A DNA stretch of 34,435 nt from Bacteroidota bacterium. Lineage in GTDB: Bacteria; Bacteroidota; Bacteroidia; UKL13-3. The notes beneath the pieces are model-generated. The model searched no databases and was not told where the DNA came from. It saw only the letters and a program-made list of their open reading frames with translations. The stretch spans positions 1 to 34,435 of the forward strand of contig CANNQU010000035.1 in the NCBI GenBank assembly GCA_947507965.1. The letters are read 5' to 3'. A program made the translations under genes and the position numbers. Within the stretch, counting starts at the first letter, position 1; each line of letters opens with the position of its first letter. Shown here piece after piece: positions 32,149-33,244 of the stretch.

Positions 32149-32343
32149 ATGTCACAACAAGGTACAGTAAAATTCTTTAATGATGAAAAAGGTTTCGGAT
32201 TCATCACACCTTCAACCGGTGGTAGCGAAATATTTGTTCATTCATCAGGCTTAATCGACAAAATTCGTGAGAACGATTCTGTTAGCTATGAGGTAGAACA
32301 AGGCAAAAAAGGCCCTAATGCGGTAAATGTAAAAAAAGCGTAA
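32149..32343 (+). CDS. Cold-shock domain protein
   Basis: This 64-residue CspA-family protein is a single OB-fold that binds single-stranded RNA and DNA and melts RNA structure. It has KGFGFI (RNP1, about 14-19) and IFVHSS (RNP2, about 28-33) and normal family length. Cold induction cannot be inferred from the sequence. It has its own promoter and a strong terminator, so it is monocistronic. The upstream bases 31967-32110 hold no gene I can support. Confidence 0.97.
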   Translation: MSQQGTVKFFNDEKGFGFITPSTGGSEIFVHSSGLIDKIRENDSVSYEVEQGKKGPNAVNVKKA

Positions 32344-32435: not shown

Positions 32436-33197
32436 CTACTTCTTCTTCTTTATACCCTCTATTTCTACGCGCATGCTACGCAGCATCGTCATAATGCTAT
32501 CCAAATTTAATTCTTCCTCTTTCTTATCGGAGATATTTAGGTTACATACAAACTCCCATATCTCGAGTATATCCACCACTTTTACCGTAAACGGATCATA
32601 GCTCTTATTGTCGGAATGCAGATATAATACATTACCCTCCATCATCACACGCTTATACACGACACCGTCTGTTTGAGTAATTAAAATATAGGTTCGCCCA
32701 TTTCGAATTCCTTTTAACGATTCAATATACTTTCCTATCACATAGCACCCATCTTTCAAAGGAGGCATAGAATCGCCTTTGATGATGAACGCACGATGTT
32801 TTCCTATGATACGAAAAGGCAAACTCATAATGGGCAGTTTTTCGATATACTCCGGGTCGGCATAGCCATTTAAATAGCCGGCAGAAGCCCTTACCGTGAC
32901 AACCTCTACCTGATCGTTATTCTCCCTGTCGACCATAATAGGAAACAAAATACGGTTCTCTCCTACTTTGATAAACGAGTCTCCGTTAAATTTGCTGAGG
33001 TCGGCTTTGATGAGCGCATCAACAGCGATATGAAACAAATTAGATATGCGTATCAGCACATCAATCGGTGGGTCGCACCGCTCCTCTTCATACGAGCCAA
33101 TACGTGCACGGGAGATGTCCAGTTTGAGCGCTAACTGTTCCTGCGACCACTTTTTTATGGTGCGCAAATGCCGGATGTTGATAGAAATTTTACTCAT
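32436..33197 (-). CDS. HTH-S24 self-cleaving repressor (LexA/CI-like)
   Basis: This 253-residue protein has an XRE/Cro-type helix-turn-helix at about 5-62 (WSQEQLALKLDISRARIGSYE) and a LexA/UmuD-type S24 peptidase fold at about 95-215. The self-cleavage parts are all present: Ala106-Gly107 in RASAGY, Ser143 in KGDSM and Lys182 in VVYKR. The intervals of 37 and 39 residues are close to those of E. coli LexA (35 and 37). A lysine-rich tail (221-253) follows and is not explained. It is divergent from a Y-family polymerase gene, whose likely regulator it is. Two 17-bp palindromes around its own promoter suggest autorepression. RecA-triggered cleavage is inference. Confidence 0.9.
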   Translation of the reverse strand: MSKISINIRHLRTIKKWSQEQLALKLDISRARIGSYEEERCDPPIDVLIRISNLFHIAVDALIKADLSKFNGDSFIKVGENRILFPIMVDRENNDQVEVVTVRASAGYLNGYADPEYIEKLPIMSLPFRIIGKHRAFIIKGDSMPPLKDGCYVIGKYIESLKGIRNGRTYILITQTDGVVYKRVMMEGNVLYLHSDNKSYDPFTVKVVDILEIWEFVCNLNISDKKEEELNLDSIMTMLRSMRVEIEGIKKKK

Positions 33198-33213
33198 GCT
33201 AAAATATTTAGCA
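33197..33213. promoter_or_regulatory. Operator 1, perfect 17-bp palindrome
   Basis: TGCTAAAATATTTAGCA has perfect 7-base arms around a 3-base centre. It overlaps the first base of the repressor ATG and the expected transcription start. Its pattern matches the second site at 33220-33236, which supports a repressor binding site. Confidence 0.7.
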
Positions 33214-33244
33214 CAAACGTACTAAATTATTTGGTAATTTTCAA
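33214..33244 (-). promoter_or_regulatory. Repressor promoter, full -33/-7 consensus
   Basis: On the minus strand TTG (33242-33244) is followed after 20 bases by TACGTTTG (33214-33221). This matches the Bacteroidota primary-sigma promoter TTG-N17-23-TAnnTTTG and is the only full match I found in the window. The -7 box lies exactly between the two operators. Confidence 0.75.
33220..33236. promoter_or_regulatory. Operator 2, near-perfect 17-bp palindrome
   Basis: TACTAAATTATTTGGTA has 7-base arms with one mismatch and a 3-base centre. It agrees with operator 1 in the shared form TnCTAAAnTATTTnGnA. Centres are 23 bp apart. It lies in the spacer of the repressor promoter. A weak plus-strand -7-like sequence, TAATTTTC (33235-33242), abuts its other side and might serve the polymerase gene. 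Confidence 0.65.

Follow-up and report, generated by a model that had tools for sequence, protein, structure and literature searches.

The window (the whole 34,435-nt stretch of DNA that was analysed) contains a gene for a 253-aa repressor with HTH_3 and Peptidase_S24 domains (32436-33197, minus strand) and, divergent from it, its predicted target, a gene for a Y-family DNA polymerase of the DinB/Pol IV type (PF00817, PF11799; 33374-34435, plus strand), which is truncated by the contig end. A small gene for a cold-shock-domain-like protein (32149-32343, plus strand) lies just downstream of the repressor gene and is convergent with it.

In the repressor, HTH_3 (PF01381) scores 35.4 bits against a Pfam cut-off of 23 and Peptidase_S24 (PF00717) scores 42.2 bits against a cut-off of 23.3; the LexA DNA-binding domain (PF01726) is absent from the protein, Pfam giving HTH_3 and HTH_19 instead. 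The bond at which self-cleavage is predicted, Ala106-Gly107 (codons at 32877-32882, minus strand), the predicted catalytic serine Ser143 in a GDSMPP motif (32769-32771, minus strand) and the predicted catalytic lysine Lys182 in a VYKR motif (32652-32654, minus strand) are invariant across 11 aligned repressor sequences of 45-100% identity. The repressor is CI-like and probably self-cleaving. It is also the only S24 protein found in its genome, which is 99.9% complete, so that neither a canonical LexA nor a UmuD is evident there. The AlphaFold2 model, whose mean confidence is low, has an all-helical N-terminal domain plus a terminal helix, and its best matches in the PDB are LexA structures, although the top hits include lambda CI as well; since the C-terminal half of the model is poor (mean pLDDT 57.8), this fold search simply backs the family assignment.

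Twin operators and the promoter of the repressor gene

Two 17-bp palindromes of common form, as the preliminary description had claimed, lie at the repressor's end of the intergenic region, neither being assigned to a strand. Operator 1, TGCTAAAATATTTAGCA (33197-33213), is a perfect palindrome with the core CTAA-N5-TTAG, and operator 2, TACTAAATTATTTGGTA (33220-33236), has the core CTAA-N5-TTGG with one change, sequence inspection finding one pair broken within its outer 7+7 bases. They are separated by a spacer of 6 bp (33214-33219), which places their centres 23 bp apart, and operator 1 shares its terminal base with the repressor start codon, namely the A of the ATG that begins at 33197. In lambda OR, adjacent 17-bp operators are likewise about 6 bp apart and lie over the promoter region of the repressor.

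The promoter of the repressor gene is interleaved with these sites. Its -7 element, TACGTTTG (33221-33214, minus strand), is of the TAnnTTTG type and occupies the inter-operator spacer and, with its upstream end, two bases of operator 2, which also reaches into the spacer between the -7 and -33 elements. The -33 element is a TTG (33242-33244, minus strand) 20 bp from the -7 box. The Bacteroidetes phylum consensus for the -33/-7 elements is TTTG/TANNTTTG, with the -7 box placed at -12 to -5 relative to the start site (PMC6847099), and this numbering predicts that transcription of the repressor would start at about 33209, a position within operator 1 that would give a leader of about 12 nt. The promoter had been described as matching the full consensus between and across the operators, which, for the -7 box, holds for TAnnTTTG but not for the revised TAHHTTTG (PMC6847099), owing to a G at the fourth position. 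TAnnTTTG is found at the corresponding position in 7 of the 16 close orthologues.

The pattern TRCTAAANNNTTTRGYA is matched without mismatch by operators 1 and 2 only in the whole window, and no pair at 23-bp spacing arose when the window's promoter was randomised 20,000 times under a first-order Markov model. It is the pair and its conservation that are significant, such single palindromes not being rare.

Conservation of the array and the polymerase as a putative target

The conservation of the array was assessed in 16 orthologue promoters, that of the window among them (repressors of at least 58% identity whose start is intact), an array being defined as two sites exactly 23 bp apart, each departing from the operator consensus at no more than two positions. 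It was found in all 16, and the TACCAA..TTAGTA form of operator 2 is retained in orthologues together with the 23-bp spacing. The preliminary description had read the layout as one of autoregulation, and this retention of twin operators over the repressor's own promoter lends support to that reading. In repressor orthologues of 55% identity, the operator shifts to TGCTTAnTATTGTAGCA-like forms.

Evidence that the polymerase is also a target came from genomes in which the two genes have been separated. In G001, which belongs to the same genus, the polymerase lies about 12.7 kb away from the repressor, and in G003, also of this genus, the two are on different contigs; in both cases there is a twin array at each gene, that of the polymerase consisting of TACTAAAATATTTAGCA, 6 bp and TACTAAAATATTTGGTA and beginning 99 bp (G001) or 76 bp (G003) before the start codon. 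In G039, from another family, repressor and polymerase are again on different contigs and both have a TGTAG-type variant array with 23-bp spacing. Altogether, the distance from the beginning of the array to the start codon is 43 to 99 bp in these separated polymerases, and the arrays provide strong comparative evidence for the polymerase as a predicted target, in line with the control of this gene that had been proposed. The roughly 12.7 kb between the two arrays of G001 (G001:C50:38000-56000) are filled with ordinary-looking genes.

The same arrays make it improbable that the window's operators autoregulate the repressor only, the polymerase being just an adjacent gene transcribed from its own promoter further downstream. 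The distances would favour such an arrangement, since about 137 bp separate the end of operator 2 from the polymerase start codon and the gap between the two genes ranges from about 60 to 310 bp among relatives, but the separated polymerases bear twin arrays of their own and the polymerases show the largest induction among published relatives (PMC8565304). A scan for sigma-70-type promoters, which does not cover those of Bacteroidetes, gave nothing useful, and the polymerase promoter was not located.

Operators at recA and at a parE-type gene

The preliminary description had suggested looking for the operator at recA. The strict pattern TnCTAAAnnnTTTnGnA missed this site, but the relaxed core TRCTAA-N5-TTAGYA recovered it in the window's own genome, and in six others. 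In the former, the operator TGCTAAAAAAATTAGCA is found 84 bp upstream of recA, the identity of RecA being confirmed by NCBIfam, and a single recA operator is present in 5/5 genomes of the genus as well as in G005 and G034 of another genus. In G013 and G024, the site in the recA region, TGCTCAAATTTGTAGCA, resembles their own variant repressor operator, TGCTTA(A/T)TATTGTAGCA. The recA operator was not seen in six members of the family that retain the repressor (G009, G015, G016, G021, G025 and G030).

A further operator, TGCTAAAGATTTTAGCA, precedes a parE-type topoisomerase gene by about 154 bp in the window's own genome, and a single site is found before this gene in all five genomes of the genus; this operator is placed further upstream than the promoter, and there is no conservation of its inner bases. 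The product is a topoisomerase B subunit, for which the cut-offs do not separate ParE from GyrB. Between operator and parE promoter there is a conserved inverted repeat, TTTCC(A/G)CAC...TTTGTGGAAA (G000:C11:43400-43500), resembling paired DnaA boxes, and DnaA-box-like TGTGGA words are also found upstream of the parE-type gene in other genera. An operator is present before a PA0069-family radical-SAM gene in G001 and G003, a gene with operator that is absent from the window's own genome.

Genome-wide, the relaxed core TRCTAA-N5-TTAGYA has four sites in the window's own genome (operator 1, recA, the parE-type gene and a gene without evident SOS role) compared with two for the reversed control, and the shorter RCTAA-N5-TTAGY has 27 compared with 40 for its reversed control; five of these 27 are intergenic, and three of the five are operator 1 and the recA and parE sites. 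Since the genome total does not exceed that of the control, the regulon must be small and its delineation rests on position and conservation. Several other sites were set aside. Those at a lysS-like gene (C68) and at metF-like genes (G002:C30:46760 and G000:C102:5248), all exact or near-exact operators, lie inside coding sequence and were attributed to chance, although in the metF-like genes of the two species the operator sequence is probably fixed by the protein sequence and could act as a decoy. The site at C50:19256 precedes a gene for which no SOS role is evident, and the sites inspected in other genus members include no counterpart of it.

The operators at recA and parE also bear on whether the protein might be a prophage or mobile-element repressor that governs its own element instead of an SOS response. 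Its N-terminal domain is indeed of the phage-repressor type, but such an origin is very improbable given the position of these operators, and given that the ORFs of the 34-kb contig include no evident phage genes, that a repressor orthologue was detected in most genomes of the family and that the genome yielded no second S24 protein. Scarcely credible is the notion that the palindromes are fortuitous AT-rich sequence or RNA hairpins for, although single motif matches are about as frequent as those of the control pattern, the 23-bp spacing and the half-site letters are fixed in the 16 orthologues, the randomisations never yielded the pair and the palindromes bear a published core tested by EMSA (PMC8565304).

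The proposed switch and its published relatives

These features very probably define an SOS switch, in which the twin-operator repressor controls itself, the divergent DinB-type polymerase, recA and probably the parE-type gene, and is removed from its operators upon DNA damage by RecA-stimulated self-cleavage. In an undamaged cell, repressor dimers would lie side by side on operators 1 and 2 and, because the bound dimers would cover the -7 box, the spacer and the start site, the repressor would limit its own expression and repress the divergent polymerase; it would also occupy the single recA operator and, probably, the one preceding the parE-type topoisomerase gene. Upon DNA damage, RecA filaments would stimulate self-cleavage at Ala106-Gly107 via Ser143/Lys182, the operators would be emptied and recA, the polymerase and the repressor would be induced, resynthesis of the repressor finally resetting the switch. 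Binding, repression and damage induction are predicted here by analogy with published relatives, and RecA-stimulated cleavage by analogy with these relatives and with S24 biochemistry.

Bacteroidetes lack LexA homologues, and S24 repressors with CI-like HTH domains were described in this phylum in 2021, with EMSA using mutants and induction by mitomycin C (PMC8565304). One group of these repressors binds CTAA-N5-TTAG, and its targets are recA, dinB, umuDC, splB, the repressor itself and the topoisomerase IV operon (parCE) (PMC8565304). With this group (type Pontibacter actiniarum WP_025606010.1), the present repressor has in common the HTH_3 and S24 domains, the Ala-Gly bond, the Ser-Lys pair and the operator core, as well as recA, dinB, parEC and its own gene as predicted targets. 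Since operator core, domains, catalytic residues and targets match, it can be assigned to this known group of non-canonical LexA. There are differences, however: the target set looks small here (repressor/polymerase, recA and parE), and a two-site array with fixed 23-bp spacing is found across one family, whereas multiple sites per promoter were reported in general terms (PMC8565304). Elizabethkingia anophelis (WP_078407279.1) shows the same divergent arrangement, the region shared by repressor and polymerase containing a palindrome and both genes being induced by damage (PMC8565304, Figure 8), but its operator is TTAC-AAATT-GTAA instead of CTAA-N5-TTAG.

With E. coli LexA, the system has in common the S24 self-cleavage logic, autoregulation and a regulon including recA and dinB, but it has a phage-type HTH in place of the winged HTH (PF01726). 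The operator had been presented as unlike the E. coli LexA box, and CTAA-N5-TTAG does differ from CTG-N10-CAG, but the novelty that this implied is limited because the box is already in the literature (PMC8565304). To judge from its sequence, the locus is thus a further example of a Bacteroidetes system known since 2021, real but ordinary, and it leaves the known picture of SOS control in Bacteroidetes unchanged. It adds an uncultured family, the close relatives being environmental MAGs, to those with a non-canonical LexA.

The likeness to lambda CI extends from the CI-like HTH and S24 C-terminal domain to the adjacent-operator geometry, although there are two operators here (three in lambda), the system is chromosomal, and recA and a polymerase take the place of lytic genes as targets. 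Tentatively, the two-operator array with its rigid 23-bp spacing may be a lambda-like cooperative module, in which pairs of repressor dimers would bind side by side and which would be under selection as a whole; hence its presence at both separated genes and the concerted changes of half-site letters in the promoters of repressor, polymerase and recA. We regard this as possible rather than probable but, if true, cooperativity would be a specific design feature of this Bacteroidetes LexA branch. The separated pairs of G001/G003 and G039, and the operator variants shared within G013/G024 and G039, represent natural experiments for regulon membership. In remoter repressor/polymerase pairs (L038, L037, L035 and L044), other palindromes are found close to the start codon, such as TGATACAATTTGTATCA, TGTGATAAATAATCACA and TTGACA..TGTCAA types, which suggests a wide turnover of the motif.
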